Assembly: GCF_000227295.1 (NCBI RefSeq)
Contig: NZ_JH165054.1
Coordinates: 1,486,550 to 1,550,549 of the forward strand
Length of the DNA: 64,000 bases
Origin: Cutibacterium avidum ATCC 25577
GTDB taxonomy: Bacteria > Actinomycetota > Actinomycetes > Propionibacteriales > Propionibacteriaceae
Direction: 5' to 3'
Below, in pieces: positions 4,866 to 43,070 of this stretch (the first letter of the stretch is position 1; the number at the start of each line of letters is the position of its first letter). The notes below the pieces were generated by a model, which was not told where the DNA came from, made no database searches, and saw only the letters and a program-made list of their open reading frames with translations. The translations under genes were made by a program, and so were the position numbers.

Positions 4866-6404
4866 TCAGTCGTCGATTCCGAGCTGGGCGTTGATGGCGT
4901 TCTTGTAGAGGACGGCCTTCGCACCATAGACGGCTTGGACGCCGCCGCCGACCTCGAAGACCTCGGTCGCTCCCAAGTTCTTGAGCTTGGCCTTGTCGAC
5001 TTGGTCAGCCGTCTTCACCGAGACGCGCAGGCGGGTGATGCATGCATCGACATCCTCGATGTTCTCAGGGCCACCCAGGGCGGCGATGATCTGCGTCGCT
5101 CCCTCCTCAATACCGTCATTTCGTCGTTCGGACTTCTCAGCGGGCTTCTCCTTGGACTTGCCACCGTTCGGCGCGGCCGCAGCCATGGTGTCCTCGAGGT
5201 GCCCCGGGGTTGCGATCTTGAACTTCTTGACGAAGAACATGAACGAGAAGTAGTAGAGGGCGAACCAGATGGCTCCGATCGGCAGGACGTACAACCAGTG
5301 TGTCTTGGACTCACCCTGCAGGACGCCGAACAGCAGGTAGTCGATTGCGCCACCGGAGAAGGTGTTGCCGATGCGGATGTTCATGAGGTCGGCGACGAGG
5401 AAAGAGATGCCATCCAGGACGGAGTGGAACACGTAGAGCAGGGGAGCCACGAAGAGGAACATGTACTCGATCGGCTCGGTGATTCCCGTCAGGAAGGAGG
5501 TGAAGGCCACCGAGGCGAACAGGCCGGTGTACTTGGCGCGACGTCCCTTCGGCACACACTGCCACATCGCCAGACACGCGCCCGGCAGACCGAACATCAT
5601 GGTCGCGAAGCGACCTGCGAAGTACTTGGTCGAATGGGTGAACAGCCCGACGTGGTTCGGGTCAGCAAGCTGAGCGAAGAAGATCTTCTGGGCACCGACG
5701 GCAGTCTGCCCGGCGACGACCTCAGAACCACCCAGAGGGGTGTACCAGAACATCGGGTAAATCATGTGGTGCAGACCAACGGCGCCTGCCAGACGCATCA
5801 GGAAGCCGTAGAAGAAGGTGCCGATGACTCCCCATCCGGCGATCGCGGTGCCGGCCGACACCATTCCGGCCTGGACCGGCGGCCATACCAGGAAGAAAAA
5901 TGCGCCAATGATGATTCCGGCGAAGGCTGTGACGATCGGGACGAAGCGCGAGCCGCCGAAGAAGCCGAGGAAGGCTGGCAGCTCAATGTTGTGGTAACGG
6001 TTGTGGAGCCACACGGCGACGGCACCGATGACGAGTGAACCGATGACGCCGGTGTCAATCGTCCGGTCGGGGTTGCTCGAGAGCGAAACGAGCGCCTTGG
6101 TGGTGGCTGTCATGACGAGGAAGCCGGTGATGCCCGCGAGCGCGGCAGTTCCCTTGTCACGTTTCGCCAGGCCGATACACAGACCGATCGACAGCAGCAG
6201 AGCGAGGTTCTCGAAGATGACACTTCCAGCTGCGCTCATCACCTGGAAGATGTCCTGGAGAATCGGATTGCCGAGAGCGGGGTAGCTCTTGACGGTGGTG
6301 GGGTTGGACAACGCACCACCAATGCCCAGCAACAGGCCAGCCGCTGGGAGGATGGCGATCGGCAGCATGAAGGCCTTGCCGATCTTCTGCAGGGTCTTGA
6401 ACAT
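4866..6404 (-). CDS. PTS transporter EIICB (glucose / N-acetylglucosamine class)
   Basis: A 512-residue membrane permease. The N-terminal EIIC domain begins MFKTLQKIGKAFMLPIAILP and spans to about residue 400. The EIIB domain fills the last 80 residues, with phosphorylated Cys455 in DVDACITRLRV. The start ATG at 6404 lies one base after the nanE stop; an open extension further upstream overlaps nanE and is not used. Sharing an operon with ManNAc-6-P epimerase suggests an amino sugar such as N-acetylmannosamine or GlcNAc rather than glucose. That specificity is inference from context. Confidence 0.9.
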   Translation of the reverse strand: MFKTLQKIGKAFMLPIAILPAAGLLLGIGGALSNPTTVKSYPALGNPILQDIFQVMSAAGSVIFENLALLLSIGLCIGLAKRDKGTAALAGITGFLVMTATTKALVSLSSNPDRTIDTGVIGSLVIGAVAVWLHNRYHNIELPAFLGFFGGSRFVPIVTAFAGIIIGAFFFLVWPPVQAGMVSAGTAIAGWGVIGTFFYGFLMRLAGAVGLHHMIYPMFWYTPLGGSEVVAGQTAVGAQKIFFAQLADPNHVGLFTHSTKYFAGRFATMMFGLPGACLAMWQCVPKGRRAKYTGLFASVAFTSFLTGITEPIEYMFLFVAPLLYVFHSVLDGISFLVADLMNIRIGNTFSGGAIDYLLFGVLQGESKTHWLYVLPIGAIWFALYYFSFMFFVKKFKIATPGHLEDTMAAAAPNGGKSKEKPAEKSERRNDGIEEGATQIIAALGGPENIEDVDACITRLRVSVKTADQVDKAKLKNLGATEVFEVGGGVQAVYGAKAVLYKNAINAQLGIDD

Positions 6405-30048: not shown

Positions 30049-30171
30049 CAGTCGGAACGTCCAGCGGGCGGGCAGGTTTGCACGTTGCCCCGCAGACCAG
30101 CACTATTGACCTCAATGCCCAATGTTGGAGCACACCGCCCGGCATGGCGGCAGACACCGGAAGGACTCCAG

Positions 30172-31887
30172 ATGACTGACGAGGCTCTCCAGCCGACGCC
30201 ACAGTCGGCCGGTGATCTGGGCACCGCGTCGGCCCAGGCCAGGGTGCAGTTCGTGGGTACTGGCCCAGGAGATCCGAATTTGTTGACCCTGGGGGCCGTT
30301 GACGCCATCAATCGCGCTCAGGTCATCGTCATTTCGTGCCCAGGACACCGCATTCTGCTCGGCAGCGACTTCCTGGAGCTCCACTCCGACGTCAGGATCG
30401 TCTCGGCTGGTAGCCCCGACGAAGAGGCAGCCGTCCTGCCCAGCCAGCCCGGAACGGGCGCACCCACCCCGGTCAAGGTCGCGGAACACTGCGCCGACGT
30501 CACCGCCACGATCATTGATGCGGCCTCCCAGGGACTTGAGGTCGTCCGTCTCGTTAGCGGGGACCCCTTCCTCGATGGCGACATCGGTGCCGAGGCCGCT
30601 GCCGTGGCCCGCGCCGACCACGACGTCGACGTCGTTCCCGGTGTCACCGGGATGACGGCAGTTCCGGAGTACGCCGGTCTGGCCCTCCATGGCCATGACG
30701 TCCAGCTCATCGGTGACGCCGCCTGTCAGCGAGACATCGCGGGCAGGGGATCGACCTGGTCGGCCAACGGACTCGTCGTCGTCAACACTTCGGCTGGCCG
30801 GGTTAAGGAGGTCGTCAAGCATGCGGTTGCCTCTGGCCGCAACGAGGATGAGCCGGCAGCCCTCATCTGCCACGGCGCAACGACCCAGCAGACCACCCAC
30901 ACCACCACCCTCGGTGAGCTGCCGCAGACCGCCAAGTCCGCTCGGCTGGCCGACGCCGAGCTGATTCACATTGCCATCGGCAAGGTCGTCGAGGCTCCGG
31001 AGCGCGAACAGCTTGACTGGTACGAGTCCAAGCCGCTGTTCGGCTGGAGGATCCTCATCCCGCGCACCCGCGACCACTCCGCGACCCTGCCCTCGCGTCT
31101 GCAGAGCTACGGCGCTCACTCCCTCGACGTCCCGACGATCTCGATGGAACCTCCGCGTACCCCGCAGCAAATGGACAAGGCCATTCGCGGTCTCGTCGAG
31201 GGACGCTACGAGTGGGTTGTCTTCACCTCCGCTAATGCCGTGCGGGCCGTCTCCGAGAAGCTGGAGCAGATCGGTTTGGACGCCCGCGCTTACTCGGGTC
31301 TGCGCATCGCAGCCATCTTCGAGTCGACGATCAACGCTCTGGCCGAGTGGGGAGTGCGACCTGACCTGGTGCCGTCCGGGGAGCAGTCCACCCGCGCCCT
31401 GGCCGCAGTGTTCCCGGCCTTCGACGAGGCCCTTGACCCCATCAACCGAGTCTTCGTGCCGCGTGCCGACATTGCCACCGAGTCCCTGTCGGCCGACCTG
31501 TCCGAACTGGGCTGGGAGGTCGAGGATGTCGTCGGATACCGCACCGTTCGTGCCGCTCCGCCGCCAGCCGAGACCCGCGAGGCCATCAAGACCGGCAAGT
31601 TCGACGCCGTCGTCTTCACCTCCTCGACGACTGTGCGCAACCTCGTCGGTATCGCCGGCAAGCCGCACAAGCACACCGTCGTCGCTGCCGTGGGCATGCG
31701 CACTGCCGAGACCTGCCGGGAGCACGGTCTGACGGTCGACGTCATCGCCCCGGAGCCGACTGCGTTGAGCCTTGCTGACGCCCTCGCCGATTTCGCCGCG
31801 AAGCGTCGTGACGACATGGTCGCCAAGGGCCTGCCGGTCGTTCGGCCTTCCCAGCGCAAGCGTCGGGGCCGTCACCCATCACGCTGA
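30172..31887 (+). CDS. cobA/hemD: uroporphyrin-III C-methyltransferase / uroporphyrinogen-III synthase fusion (CobA-HemD)
   Basis: A 571-residue fusion. Residues about 22-270 form a SUMT-like methyltransferase with VQFVGTGPGDPNLLTLGA, LVSGDPFLDGDIGAE in place of the usual KGGDPFxFGRGGEE, and VVPGVTGMTAVPEYAGL. Residues about 290-550 form a HemD domain starting WRILIPRTRDHSATLP. Activity of both would divert hydroxymethylbilane to precorrin-2 for sirohaem and cobalamin. The divergent SAM loop means methylation is less certain than the synthase. ATG 30172 follows GGAAGG. A separate hemD lies in the haem operon. Confidence 0.85.
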   Translation: MTDEALQPTPQSAGDLGTASAQARVQFVGTGPGDPNLLTLGAVDAINRAQVIVISCPGHRILLGSDFLELHSDVRIVSAGSPDEEAAVLPSQPGTGAPTPVKVAEHCADVTATIIDAASQGLEVVRLVSGDPFLDGDIGAEAAAVARADHDVDVVPGVTGMTAVPEYAGLALHGHDVQLIGDAACQRDIAGRGSTWSANGLVVVNTSAGRVKEVVKHAVASGRNEDEPAALICHGATTQQTTHTTTLGELPQTAKSARLADAELIHIAIGKVVEAPEREQLDWYESKPLFGWRILIPRTRDHSATLPSRLQSYGAHSLDVPTISMEPPRTPQQMDKAIRGLVEGRYEWVVFTSANAVRAVSEKLEQIGLDARAYSGLRIAAIFESTINALAEWGVRPDLVPSGEQSTRALAAVFPAFDEALDPINRVFVPRADIATESLSADLSELGWEVEDVVGYRTVRAAPPPAETREAIKTGKFDAVVFTSSTTVRNLVGIAGKPHKHTVVAAVGMRTAETCREHGLTVDVIAPEPTALSLADALADFAAKRRDDMVAKGLPVVRPSQRKRRGRHPSR

Positions 31888-33957: not shown

Positions 33958-35558
33958 TGGGTGATTCCGTGAAGGACGCGAAAGTGACGGATCCGAGGAG
34001 CTCGACCTCGGCTCGTGGGAGCGGCGGACTCGGTTTCGGCGCATCCATGCGGTGGTTGTGGGGTCAGCTGACGAGCATGAGGACGGCCCTCATCCTGCTG
34101 TTCCTGCTGGCCCTGGCAGCCATCCCGGGGTCGATGGTGCCGCAGACCGCAAACAGCGCGATCAAGGTCTCCGACTTTGCCGCCAACCACCCCACCCTGG
34201 ATCGCATCTACCGGCCGCTGGGGATGTACCACGTCTACACCTCGGTGTGGTTCTCGGCGATCTACCTGCTGCTGTTCATCAGCCTCATCGGCTGCATCAT
34301 TCCGCGCATCATCAGTCACGTGAAGGCCTTGCGCCGGCAGCCTCCTCGCGTGCCCGCCAGGCTGGACCGGTTGGCAGCCCATGCCTCGACGACCATCTCT
34401 GACTCGGCCGAGGAGGTCGACAAGCGAGCCCGGGAGTGGTTGAAAGTCCGACGGTACCGGTTCGTCGTTGACGACGATGGCTCCATTCGTGCCGAGGCCG
34501 GACGCCACCGCGAGACGGGCAACCTGATCTTCCACGTCTTTCTGGTTTTCCTGCTCGTTGGTGTCGGTTGGAACACCCTGTGGGGATTCAAGGGAACCTC
34601 GGTTGTCGTCGAGGGTCAGGGATTCTCCAACAACATCACCCAGTACGACGAGTTCAAGGCAGGGTCGATGGTCGACACCGACGATCTGGCCCCGTTCTCC
34701 ATGAAGCTGCGCAAGTTCACAGCCTCCTTCGAGACCGGCACGGTTCAGCGTGGTGCTGCTCGCAGCTTCGACGCCACCGTCGACCTCACCGTGGACGGCA
34801 CGACCGAGACTCGAGACTTGCAGGTCAATCACCCGCTGCGGATCGGCTCGACCAAGGTCCATCTGCTGGGCCATGGCTACGCCGCAGACGTTCTCGTCCG
34901 CGACGGAAATGGCAAGGTCGCCTATTCGGGTCCTGTGGTCTTCCTGCCTCAGGACGGCAACTTCAAGTCAGTCGGTGTCATCAAGGCCCCCGACGCCCGC
35001 CCGGATCGTCTGGCCTTCCAGGGATTCTTCCTACCGACCGGCACGATCACGGCTGGTGGCCCGACCTCCCTCTTCCCAGATGCCCTCAACCCGCAGCTGT
35101 ACCTGACCGCCTGGTACGGCAAACCGGCCGGCGAGACGGGTGTTCCGTCGAACATCTACACCCTTGACACGACCGGCATGACCCAGGTGACGAACGGCAA
35201 GGAGAAGTCCCGATTCGTGCTGTCGCCGGGGCAGGGATACAAGCTGCCCGACGGCAGAGGATCGATCCAGTTCAACGGCTGGCAGCGCTGGGCCAAGATC
35301 CAGGTGTCCCAGACCCCTGGTCTACCGCTGACCTTCCTGTCCGTGCTGCTCTCAGTGGCCGGTCTGTGCTTAAGTCTGTTCTCACGGTCGCGACGGGTGT
35401 GGATGAGAATGACGCCCATCGAGGAGGGCTTGAAGGTGGAGATCGGTGGCCTGGACCGCAGTGACTCCCGATCCGGTGCGGTGGACGATGTAAACTCTCT
35501 GCTGGCTGCGGTACACGGAGATAGCATGTCAGGCGACATCAAGGAGGCCCAGTCGTGA
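33957..35558 (+). CDS. resB: cytochrome c biogenesis protein ResB
   Basis: A 533-residue membrane protein of the System II haem ligase. Two membrane helices near residues 37-57 and about 100 follow a short soluble start (SMRTALILLFLLALAAIPG, then SAIYLLLFISLIGC). A third lies near 185, then a large extracellular domain, then a last helix near 465 (LTFLSVLLSVAGLCLSLF). It partners CcsA/ResC to carry and ligate haem. Its ATG overlaps the ccdA stop by one base. Confidence 0.92.
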   Translation: MGDSVKDAKVTDPRSSTSARGSGGLGFGASMRWLWGQLTSMRTALILLFLLALAAIPGSMVPQTANSAIKVSDFAANHPTLDRIYRPLGMYHVYTSVWFSAIYLLLFISLIGCIIPRIISHVKALRRQPPRVPARLDRLAAHASTTISDSAEEVDKRAREWLKVRRYRFVVDDDGSIRAEAGRHRETGNLIFHVFLVFLLVGVGWNTLWGFKGTSVVVEGQGFSNNITQYDEFKAGSMVDTDDLAPFSMKLRKFTASFETGTVQRGAARSFDATVDLTVDGTTETRDLQVNHPLRIGSTKVHLLGHGYAADVLVRDGNGKVAYSGPVVFLPQDGNFKSVGVIKAPDARPDRLAFQGFFLPTGTITAGGPTSLFPDALNPQLYLTAWYGKPAGETGVPSNIYTLDTTGMTQVTNGKEKSRFVLSPGQGYKLPDGRGSIQFNGWQRWAKIQVSQTPGLPLTFLSVLLSVAGLCLSLFSRSRRVWMRMTPIEEGLKVEIGGLDRSDSRSGAVDDVNSLLAAVHGDSMSGDIKEAQS

Positions 35559-36448
35559 GTGTGGAGAATCTGTCGGCCGTCGGTATCGTCACCGCGGCGG
35601 TGCTCTACATGCTTGCCTTCCTGACTCACGTCGTGGAATGGGCCAGTGTTCGCGGGGTCGAGCACCCCAGCCACAAGGCGCGGCTGAGATCCGAGACGTG
35701 GGGGAGGATGGGCCTCAACCTCACCGTCCTGGGTGCCATCTGCGCGACCATCGGCGTCGTCTGCCGTGGTATCGCGGCACATCGGCTGCCCTGGGGCAAC
35801 ATGTACGAGTTCGTCACCTCGGCGCTGCTCTTCGTCGTCATCGCGTACCTCGTCCTCGTCGCCGTCCGCCAGGTCAGGTGGATGGGCATTGCCGTCACCC
35901 TGTTGCTGGCCGTTGGTAATGGCCTGGCAGCCACCGTGTTCTACGTGGCCGTCGCGCCGCTGGTCCCGGCCCTGCACTCGGTGTGGTTCGTCATCCACAT
36001 TGTCGCGGCTTGTATTGCTGCTGCTGCGCTCAACGTCGGTGCCATTGCCTCGATCATGTATCTCATCTCGATGAACGCCCGGGCGAAGGCTGAGCGGACT
36101 GGAATTCCCGTCAGGGGATTGCTCGCCAAGCTTCCTCCCCCGGAGTCCATGGACACCCTGGCCTACCGTGCACATGCCATCGGCTTTCCGATCTGGACCT
36201 TCACCATCGCGGCCGGCTCAATCTGGGCTGACTACGCATGGGGTCGGTTCTGGGGATGGGACCCCAAGGAGACCTGGTCCCTGGTGACCTGGGTGGTCTA
36301 CGCGGCCTACCTGCACGCCCGCTCCACAGCCGGATGGCGCGGACGCCCGGCTGCCATCATCGCGATCATCGGTGTGGCCTGTTTCTGGTTCAACTTCATC
36401 GGCGTCAACCTGATCTTCAACGGCTTGCATTCGTATGCCGGCATCTGA
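35555..36448 (+). CDS. ccsA: cytochrome c assembly protein CcsA/ResC
   Basis: A 297-residue multi-helix protein with the haem-handling Trp-rich loop WGRFWGWDPKETWSLVTW at about 229-246 and flanking membrane helices; conserved His residues lie near HIVAA and AYLHARS. With ResB it exports haem and joins it to apocytochrome c. It overlaps resB by four bases and ends one base before the next gene. Confidence 0.94.
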   Translation: MSVENLSAVGIVTAAVLYMLAFLTHVVEWASVRGVEHPSHKARLRSETWGRMGLNLTVLGAICATIGVVCRGIAAHRLPWGNMYEFVTSALLFVVIAYLVLVAVRQVRWMGIAVTLLLAVGNGLAATVFYVAVAPLVPALHSVWFVIHIVAACIAAAALNVGAIASIMYLISMNARAKAERTGIPVRGLLAKLPPPESMDTLAYRAHAIGFPIWTFTIAAGSIWADYAWGRFWGWDPKETWSLVTWVVYAAYLHARSTAGWRGRPAAIIAIIGVACFWFNFIGVNLIFNGLHSYAGI

Positions 36449-36449
36449 C

Positions 36450-37898
36450 ATGAAGGGTTCCTTCTCCGAATCCCATGATGATTGGCTTCCCCAGCTCTAC
36501 CAAGAGGAGTGGGACGCCTTCGTCAGGTTGGCCACCCTGTTGCTGGCAGACCAGCGGGTGGCCGAGGCTGCCGTCATCGCAGCCTTTGTCACCAGTTACC
36601 GGCGCGATCCGCGGTTGCATTCCCATCAGCATGCCGTGTCGTATCTGCGCACCGCCGTCGTGAACAAGGCCAGGGGCCGACAACCGGCAGAACGAGACAC
36701 AACTCCTCCCCAAGCCCCCGACGAGTTGGCGTACTGGTGTCTGCGGGGGCTGCCGGCCCGACAGCGTGAGGTGCTGGTCCTCAAATTCGCGACAGCAGAT
36801 CTGTCAGACGACGAGATCGCCGAGACCTTGGGCATGAGCGTCAATGGCGTTCACAACAACGAGACGAAGGGTCTGACTGCCATCGGTGAGACGTTGCGTC
36901 CTGATTCCCACACGAATCCCGGCCACGCCGATCCCAGGGTCGAGGCGGTCGTGCGCTCAGCCCTGGAAACCATCATGGAGTCGATCCGTCCGAACTCCGG
37001 CTATGACGCCATCACCTCTCAGATTTCCCGGAAACCGCGTCGTGGCCTTCCCGCCAACTGGATCGTCGCCCTGGCCTGTCTGGTGGCACTGGGGCTTGGC
37101 ATTCTGTCCCCCCTGCTGGGCTCGAATCACAGTTCGACGACGAGCGATTCGGAAGCGGCACCTGCTGCCCGAACTCCGCAGGCCAGCGACCAGTCCCTGC
37201 CGACCGTTCAGACTGGGTTGGATGTCTTCTACCTGGGTCGTGACGACGGGCTCATCCACCGTGAGCTGCGTGACCTGCCGACCCTCGGCGACCTGTTGGG
37301 AACGGCAGTTGGGGCGGTTCTCAACGTCGCGCCCCTCGACCCGAATTACACATCCGGGTGGGCAGCTGGCCAGGTGAACCGGGCATCGGTCAAGGGAAAA
37401 CGCATCACCATCGACCTGTCGGCGTCCGCCTTCAGCCAGTTCAAGAATGGTGAACAGGTGCAAAGGGCCATCCAGCAGCTCGTCGTGACCGCCACGGCGG
37501 CCGTCGGTGACCGCACCGGTGACAAATCGGTGCGAATCCTCGTTGATGGTTCGCCGAACCTACCGATCATTGGCAAGCCCGCCACGGATTTCGTCGACGA
37601 AGGTCTTGCTCAGTGCGCCCGGGTGTGGGTTGACACGCCACAGGCCGGTGCTGATGTGCCGTCCGGCAAGATCACCATCAGCGGTCTCGCCCAGCCGACG
37701 GTTTCCGTCATGACGTACGAAGTGAGGTCCCCCCAGGGCAATCAGATGGTCACCAGCGGGCAGATCAACATCTCGGCCACTGACGGTGACAGGTGGCGCC
37801 CGTGGAGCGCCACCGTCACCATACCCAAGGGGGAGTATGACGTGGTGATCCGGGAAGGAAACCGCATCGCTGACGAGAAGGTTGTGACGGCGAAGTAG
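36450..37898 (+). CDS. membrane-spanning fusion: sigma-70-like domains, one TM helix, GerMN and Gmad2 domains
   Basis: A 482-residue protein with an unusual order. Residues 18-80 resemble ECF sigma region 2 (EWDAFVRLATLLLADQRVAE), but the core-binding DxxQE stretch is replaced by AAVIAAF. Residues 95-150 are a good region-4 helix-turn-helix (LPARQREVLVLKFATADLSD, then EIAETLGMSVNGVH). A single membrane helix is at 203-224. Residues about 250-385 look like GerMN, and 390-482 like a Gmad2 immunoglobulin-type domain. The topology puts DNA binding inside and the sensor-like domains outside. Start is ATG 36450, or ATG 36435 inside ccsA. It is probably co-transcribed with the cytochrome c genes. 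Confidence 0.8.
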   Translation: MKGSFSESHDDWLPQLYQEEWDAFVRLATLLLADQRVAEAAVIAAFVTSYRRDPRLHSHQHAVSYLRTAVVNKARGRQPAERDTTPPQAPDELAYWCLRGLPARQREVLVLKFATADLSDDEIAETLGMSVNGVHNNETKGLTAIGETLRPDSHTNPGHADPRVEAVVRSALETIMESIRPNSGYDAITSQISRKPRRGLPANWIVALACLVALGLGILSPLLGSNHSSTTSDSEAAPAARTPQASDQSLPTVQTGLDVFYLGRDDGLIHRELRDLPTLGDLLGTAVGAVLNVAPLDPNYTSGWAAGQVNRASVKGKRITIDLSASAFSQFKNGEQVQRAIQQLVVTATAAVGDRTGDKSVRILVDGSPNLPIIGKPATDFVDEGLAQCARVWVDTPQAGADVPSGKITISGLAQPTVSVMTYEVRSPQGNQMVTSGQINISATDGDRWRPWSATVTIPKGEYDVVIREGNRIADEKVVTAK

Positions 37899-42323: not shown

Positions 42324-43070
42324 TCAGGGGTGCAGATGCTCCATGAACGGCATGATCGGTGTGAGCAGACCGGTGCTCATCCAGAACATACCGAAGGCCA
42401 TCGCGAAATCACCCAGGCCGGAGAGGCGAATCGCCAGTGGTTCGGTGGCCACCACATGGCAGGTGGGAACCTTGCGTGGGTTCTCGGCCTCGCCGCTGAT
42501 GGCTCGCCACAGGCCGGCAATGGCCAGGGCCAGCAGGGCGACCATGAGAGGGATCCCGACGACGGCGAAGTCATGCATCGCGGCATTCATGGTCGTCTGC
42601 ATTCCATGGTCCATGCCGCCGTTCATACCGTGACCCATACCGCCATGGTTCATGCCGTGGTCCATTCCGCCGTGATTCATGGTTCCCATGCCGGAGTGCT
42701 TGGACGCCGTCATGAGGGAGGACATCTTGCGCATCGCGGCGAGGTGCCAGACCATCGCGGCGAACATGGCGGCATGACCCCATGACGACCACGAGGATCG
42801 CCAGGCGGCCATGAAGACCATCCAGGCCGTACAGATGGCGAAGACGACGACCGGAGTGGTTGGTCCGCCAATGGCGGAGACGAGAGGTTTCCACCATGAC
42901 TTGGGCACCATGAGGATCATGGTGACCGCCATCACGACGTGGACCCATGTGGAGATCTTCGTGACGACGGTGGGCGCCTTGATGGCGTCCCGCACCGACC
43001 ACACGAGTGACCATGCAAAGAGGATGAGGAGCCCGACGAAGGTGACGGGCGTTGAGGTGAGGGTGAACAT
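42324..43070 (-). CDS. polytopic membrane protein with Met/His/Gly repeat (DUF5134-like)
   Basis: A 248-residue protein with about six membrane helices. Between the fourth and fifth lies a repeat built from NHGGMDHGM, NHGGMGHGM and NGGMDHGM (about residues 131-157), giving dense Met and His of a kind that often binds copper. The rest resembles DUF5134 membrane proteins of actinobacteria (SWGHAAMFAAMVWHLA), but I am not certain of that family. Transport or metal storage is inference. It is upstream of ilvD on the same strand. Confidence 0.7.
   Translation of the reverse strand: MFTLTSTPVTFVGLLILFAWSLVWSVRDAIKAPTVVTKISTWVHVVMAVTMILMVPKSWWKPLVSAIGGPTTPVVVFAICTAWMVFMAAWRSSWSSWGHAAMFAAMVWHLAAMRKMSSLMTASKHSGMGTMNHGGMDHGMNHGGMGHGMNGGMDHGMQTTMNAAMHDFAVVGIPLMVALLALAIAGLWRAISGEAENPRKVPTCHVVATEPLAIRLSGLGDFAMAFGMFWMSTGLLTPIMPFMEHLHP

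Follow-up and report, generated by a model that had tools for sequence, protein, structure and literature searches.

One gene in the 64,000-nucleotide stretch of Cutibacterium avidum ATCC 25577 analyzed here (the window) encodes a single chain in which an ECF sigma module derived from the SigE family (residues 13 to 149) is followed by a membrane helix, a GerMN domain, and a Gmad2 domain. Sequence comparison with relatives indicates that this gene is a SigE-family ECF sigma gene fused to a downstream gene for a GerMN-Gmad2 membrane protein, that the region 2 contacts with core polymerase were lost after the fusion, and that the sigma module has nevertheless been held under purifying selection. 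The reading that we prefer, with an even chance of being right, is a membrane-tethered ex-sigma docking module linked to a sensor that GerMN and Gmad2 form on the outside; the module has probably ceased to be a promoter-selecting sigma factor. The features of the locus, in window coordinates, are as follows:

36450..37898, + strand: fused open reading frame of 482 residues with no internal stop
36471..36707, + strand: sigma region 2-like module, residues 8 to 86, recognized by TIGR02983 (over residues 13 to 149) and by alignment with separate sigmas; Pfam region 2 match absent
36567..36581, + strand: altered region 2.2 core-contact motif, A40-A-V-I43-A44, identified by alignment; D/E-x-x-Q-D/N in separate relatives
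36738..36899, + strand: sigma region 4-like helix-turn-helix, residues 97 to 150 (Pfam Sigma70_r4 over 97 to 144, E = 1.4e-6; AF2 model and structural matches)
36900..37055, + strand: cytoplasmic juxtamembrane segment, residues 151 to 202, aligned to the N-terminal part of split partners, with a predicted helix at 162 to 179
37056..37121, + strand: single membrane helix, residues 203 to 224 (hydropathy peak at 205 to 223)
37122..37205, + strand: extracytoplasmic variable linker rich in Ser/Thr/Pro/Ala, residues 225 to 252, with the highest pN/pS in the chain
37287..37559, + strand: GerMN domain (Pfam Germane), residues 280 to 370, the most constrained part in Cutibacterium
37623..37856, + strand: Gmad2 Ig-like domain (Pfam Gmad2), residues 392 to 469
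35555..36448, + strand: ccsA (Pfam Cytochrom_C_asm), the upstream neighbor, given for context; lost or moved in several relatives

The start at 36450 lies one base past the ccsA stop; an alternative in-frame ATG at 36435 would yield 487 residues and overlap that stop, which ends at 36448. The one-chain architecture of sigma-like segments, helix, GerMN, and Gmad2 was proposed in the original prediction, and Pfam and NCBIfam profiles uphold it. Sigma70_r4, Germane, and Gmad2 all exceed their curated Pfam cut-offs in the window protein, the latter two identifying it as a GerMN/Gmad2 protein, and the Pfam scan returned zero matches to sigma region 2. The NCBIfam SigE-fam_strep profile (TIGR02983) recognizes the ECF sigma module with an alignment to residues 13 to 149 (E = 3e-21). 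Like SigE-family sigmas, the protein has a homologous N-terminal 150 residues and a region 4 helix-turn-helix, and its separate relatives adjoin a GerMN partner; unlike them, it scores 75.8 bits against a curated cut-off of 141.55, lacks the D/E-x-x-Q-D/E motif of region 2.2, and is fused to a membrane protein. The net charge flanking the membrane helix is +3 on the N side and -2 on the C side, which would place the sigma module within the cell. We infer that the sigma module and juxtamembrane segment face the cytoplasm and that GerMN-Gmad2 lies outside, in support of the topology first suggested.

An AF2 model of residues 1 to 207, built from a four-sequence alignment (pLDDT 66.8, pTM 0.65), finds its best structural matches over residues 10 to 154 among ECF sigma factors, namely SigG1 (Z 9.7, 141 residues, rmsd 5.5) and SigW (Z 9.2). 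The same model gave zero Foldseek matches at E <= 0.001, and because these E-values are weak, the structural support for a sigma fold is modest. The prediction was to have failed if profiles and structure models showed no sigma-like fold in residues 18 to 150, but such a fold is present. A full-length AF2 model (three sequences, pLDDT 47.7) was left out of the fold claims, and the alignments behind both models are shallow. A search of solved structures with a sequence profile of the g33 modules (g33 is one of the groups carrying the fusion) yielded nothing convincing.

The origin of the chain can be read from relatives in which its halves are separate. Other genera within the family have the sigma gene first and the gene for the GerMN membrane partner next, the two frequently overlapping. 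They overlap stop to start at this locus in four genomes (G011, G057, G061, and G062) and lie adjacent to each other at other places in three (G010, G030, and G103). An adjacent sigma/GerMN pair is also common in a second family, f3, among the matches listed, and no fusion occurs among those matches. Because the halves are neighboring genes in relatives, the protein is best explained as the product of a fusion between a sigma gene and the gene for the membrane partner encoded beside it. At this locus, three g11/g25 species carry a GerMN protein without a sigma module. At L035 (G018), L093 (G122), and L094 (G121), a lone GerMN membrane protein follows ccsA and no sigma module was found.

The GerMN part was recovered by search in 78 of 198 genomes of the family, and all nine Cutibacterium (g1) genomes have the gene. 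Overlap by a few bases in relatives means that a single indel could join the two genes, and a sequencing or assembly error of this kind had been named as a way in which the prediction might fail. However, the joined frame is intact in independent assemblies of 8/9 Cutibacterium and 3/5 g4 genomes and in 25 g33 genomes (those parsed; additional g33 genomes have open frames of similar length), and we reject this explanation as having a negligible probability. In the ninth Cutibacterium genome, that of C. namnetense (G007; L033/L046), a frameshift within GerMN at about position 5115 cuts the fused gene into frames of 314 and 169 residues, reflecting either an assembly error or a broken gene, and the fusion of one g33 genome (G067) is likewise broken by frameshifts.

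In a tree built on the GerMN part, the fusions fall into three distinct clades (g1, part of g4, and g33), and relatives that are split or lack a sigma lie between them. AU tests rejected a common clade both for the g1 and g4 fusions together (p = 0.014) and for all fusions (p = 0.001), p-values that are somewhat generous because the groups were chosen once the tree was known. At least three independent fusions at this locus within one family seems the simplest reading, and a return by fission to a gene pair with a canonical sigma seems less probable.

The residues of region 2.2 contact the beta-prime clamp helices of polymerase, as established for sigma-70. The window protein reads A40-A-V-I43-A44-A-F46 at this position, and its replacement of the usual motif had led to the guess that it may no longer act as a true sigma factor, a guess that gains support from the loss of region 2 and region 2.2 marks across the fusions. 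Pfam recognizes region 2 in 21/23 split sigmas, 2/11 g1 and g4 fusions, and 0/25 g33 fusions, and region 4 in 23/23, 11/11, and 2/25, respectively; Germane is found in all 36 fusions scanned. The region 2.2 glutamine is kept in 14/17 split sigmas and in 1/37 fusions (1/9 in g1, 0/3 in g4, and 0/25 in g33), and the acidic residue persists in 17/17 split sigmas, 6/9 g1, 0/3 g4, and about 4/25 g33 fusions. As the species counted share ancestry, the Fisher tests on these split-versus-fused comparisons are descriptive only. Split sigmas also replace the glutamine, with R in G011 and G057 and S in G062, so its loss alone is no proof of lost core binding.

The main rival to the docking reading is a working ECF sigma with a built-in regulator, in which outer sensing would lead to regulated intramembrane proteolysis near the helix and release of the sigma to polymerase. 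Fusions with that mechanism exist (PMC8999054, PMC5411451). IutY of Pseudomonas putida (ECF243) is described as an active sigma/anti-sigma fusion in iron-starvation cell-surface signaling that is released by proteolysis (PMC8999054), and it resembles the window protein in having an N-terminal sigma, a membrane helix, and an extracytoplasmic regulatory part in one chain. In contrast to IutY, the window protein carries GerMN and Gmad2 outside, belongs to an actinobacterial host, and has lost its core contacts. The actinobacterial groups ECF48, ECF52, and ECF53 are also fusions of a sigma with a membrane regulator that has a domain beyond the membrane; they are described with a zinc-finger anti-sigma domain and proposed proteolytic activation, and SCO4117 with a carbohydrate-binding domain (PMC8999054). 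The window protein shares their one-chain arrangement, but it has GerMN and Gmad2 in place of the zinc finger, for which the Pfam scan returned no match at E up to 1. The genome encodes one site-2 protease (PF02163), though such proteases occur in 14/14 control genomes and are near-universal, making this weak evidence. A released sigma would fit the intact region 4 and the purifying selection on the module, but the core-contact residues are gone in most fusions and none of the 25 g33 proteins of the same architecture retains a Pfam region 2. We consider release unlikely overall, though possible in Cutibacterium, and most plausible for species that keep the QD motif, such as the Cutibacterium species G008, which retains 'QDAF' in region 2.2. 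Residual promoter activity is possible in Cutibacterium, as region 4 scores above the Pfam cut-off and the region 2.4-like stretch (VSYLRTAVVNKARGRQ) is similar to its counterpart in separate relatives.

The g33 modules remain clearly homologous to the split sigmas by hhalign (probability 98.7, E = 3e-16, 150 columns). On a fixed topology, the ratio of sigma to GerMN branch length is 5.7 on the g33 fusion stem and 3.2 for fused g4, compared with 0.97 to 1.05 in split g4, g32, and g23; stem ratios of split lineages also vary, from 0.4 in g7 to 2.2 in g12. Within g33 the ratio is 0.92, near 1. The sigma-to-GerMN comparison gives 1.13 versus 0.48 on the six-species Cutibacterium stem, and the g1 stem taken whole has a ratio of 0.64. 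These values suggest a burst of change in the sigma module at fusion, followed by renewed constraint. Net charge compared across modules followed no clear pattern. Two histidines, H70 and H114 (alignment A5), are invariant in 25/25 g33 modules, at positions occupied mostly by N and R in separate sigmas; these histidines are absent in Cutibacterium and could possibly form a new ligand or partner site.

Selection on the module bears on a further alternative, in which GerMN-Gmad2 does its work in the envelope and the fused sigma part is only a passenger, anchor, or stabilizer. Across the Cutibacterium pairs computed, dN/dS values are about 0.09 to 0.11 for region 2, 0.06 to 0.16 for region 4, and 0.02 to 0.08 for GerMN, which makes GerMN the most constrained part there, as a passenger sigma would predict. 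Also in line with it are the sigma-less GerMN proteins found at this locus in the three g11/g25 species and the existence of lipoprotein versions without a sigma gene. Yet the sigma module is not decaying: dN/dS is about 0.1 in Cutibacterium, and in g33 the module ranks among the most constrained parts (region 2, 0.04 to 0.27; region 4, 0.03 to 0.18; GerMN, 0.12 to 0.34; Gmad2, 0.22 to 0.40), being more constrained than GerMN/Gmad2 in most g33 pairs. These are pairwise NG86 estimates, and in some pairs dS approaches saturation. Drift or deletion would be expected of a passenger, but the module is whole in all 36 intact fusions parsed, and we regard this alternative as quite improbable. In most species dN/dS lies far below 1, which rules out a pseudogene; the exception is C. 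namnetense (G007/L033) with its GerMN frameshift. As the marks of a sigma factor are lost and strong selection is kept, the sigma module has probably gained a new job.

The juxtamembrane segment offers a view of what the membrane half did before fusion. It is present in 17/19 unfused GerMN partners encoded beside a sigma gene and in 1/16 without one, and the 16 include two misassigned rows (the G007 fragment and G133, whose best-scoring piece is C-terminal) whose correction would strengthen the association. Many GerMN proteins without an adjacent sigma gene resemble lipoproteins. This distribution fits the segment being the likely sigma-contact part, retained in the fusion. The segment contains no cysteine (residues 151 to 202), and in a search of anti-sigma families the window protein matched NF052375 at only 20.3 bits (cut-off 100); a profile search of five split or sigma-less partners found no match named anti-sigma. 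The protein had been pictured as a device that dispenses with an anti-sigma factor, which is probably wrong in spirit, as the membrane half is the sigma's former separate partner and keeps the juxtamembrane segment.

The ccsA linkage had also prompted the suggestion that the protein is a sensor of haem or cytochrome c status. The order resA-ccdA-resB-ccsA-fusion is kept by the majority of genomes in Cutibacterium, g4, and g33, the tight spacing between ccsA and the fusion suggests co-transcription, and split or sigma-less partners occupy the ccs locus in g4, g32, g11, and g25. However, two genomes that retain the fusion (G002 and G083) have no ccsA-family gene by profile search, which makes the link weak. 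In seven g33 species, ccsA is missing from the locus, and in 6/7 it is found elsewhere in the genome; the two-gene form of G010 and G030 has no adjoining ccs genes in the stretches read. An old, conserved locus order is no demonstration of a functional tie to ccs. The haem link is weakly supported, and we judge a sensor of this kind highly improbable; the original interpretation as a whole is partly supported. Two g33 genomes (G084 and G101) have two ccsA-family genes each, of which only one lies at this locus. The window also encodes, upstream of the ccs genes, a fusion of a tetrapyrrole methylase with uroporphyrinogen-III synthase (HemD) (30085-31887, + strand). At 42324-43070 (- strand), it encodes a membrane protein near DUF5134 (27.4 bits, cut-off 29) with a His/Met/Gly-rich repeat (HGGMDHGMNHGGM...) that perhaps binds metal.

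Under the docking reading, the outer GerMN-Gmad2 domains would sense or bind a component of the envelope. The tethered ex-sigma module, having presumably lost polymerase binding, would no longer initiate transcription as a normal sigma subunit and may instead serve as a membrane-held dock to which a partner in the cytoplasm binds, perhaps DNA or a protein of anti-sigma-like character. A parallel for such a mode of action is PhyR of alphaproteobacteria, described as a response-regulator domain joined to a sigma-like domain and acting as an anti-sigma factor antagonist (PMC5830050). Both proteins use a sigma-derived fold, which in PhyR binds the anti-sigma factor, and the PhyR sigma-like domain matches the AF2 model with Z 8.2 over 116 residues, behind the ECF sigmas. 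The window protein differs in having no receiver domain by Pfam and in the membrane tether of its module; the comparison concerns mode of action alone, and the module may work like the PhyR domain without membership in that class. Literature searches combining ECF sigma with GerMN, and Gmad2 with sigma factor, found no paper.

The repeated fusions may together define a new, conserved class of tethered ex-sigma signaling proteins, formed by at least three joinings of an ECF sigma to its membrane partner in one family with polymerase binding lost each time, a proposal that we hold tentatively at slightly short of an even chance. Sigma-to-regulator fusions are already known. If this one did form repeatedly and then shed its sigma marks while its sigma domain stayed under selection, the family would hold a clear natural series from a sigma factor to something else, through split genes, a fresh fusion, and a remodeled module, and this series would make it possible to test directly which functions a sigma fold can take on when freed from polymerase service. 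The protein is moreover a conserved and uncharacterized membrane protein in bacteria that are common on human skin.
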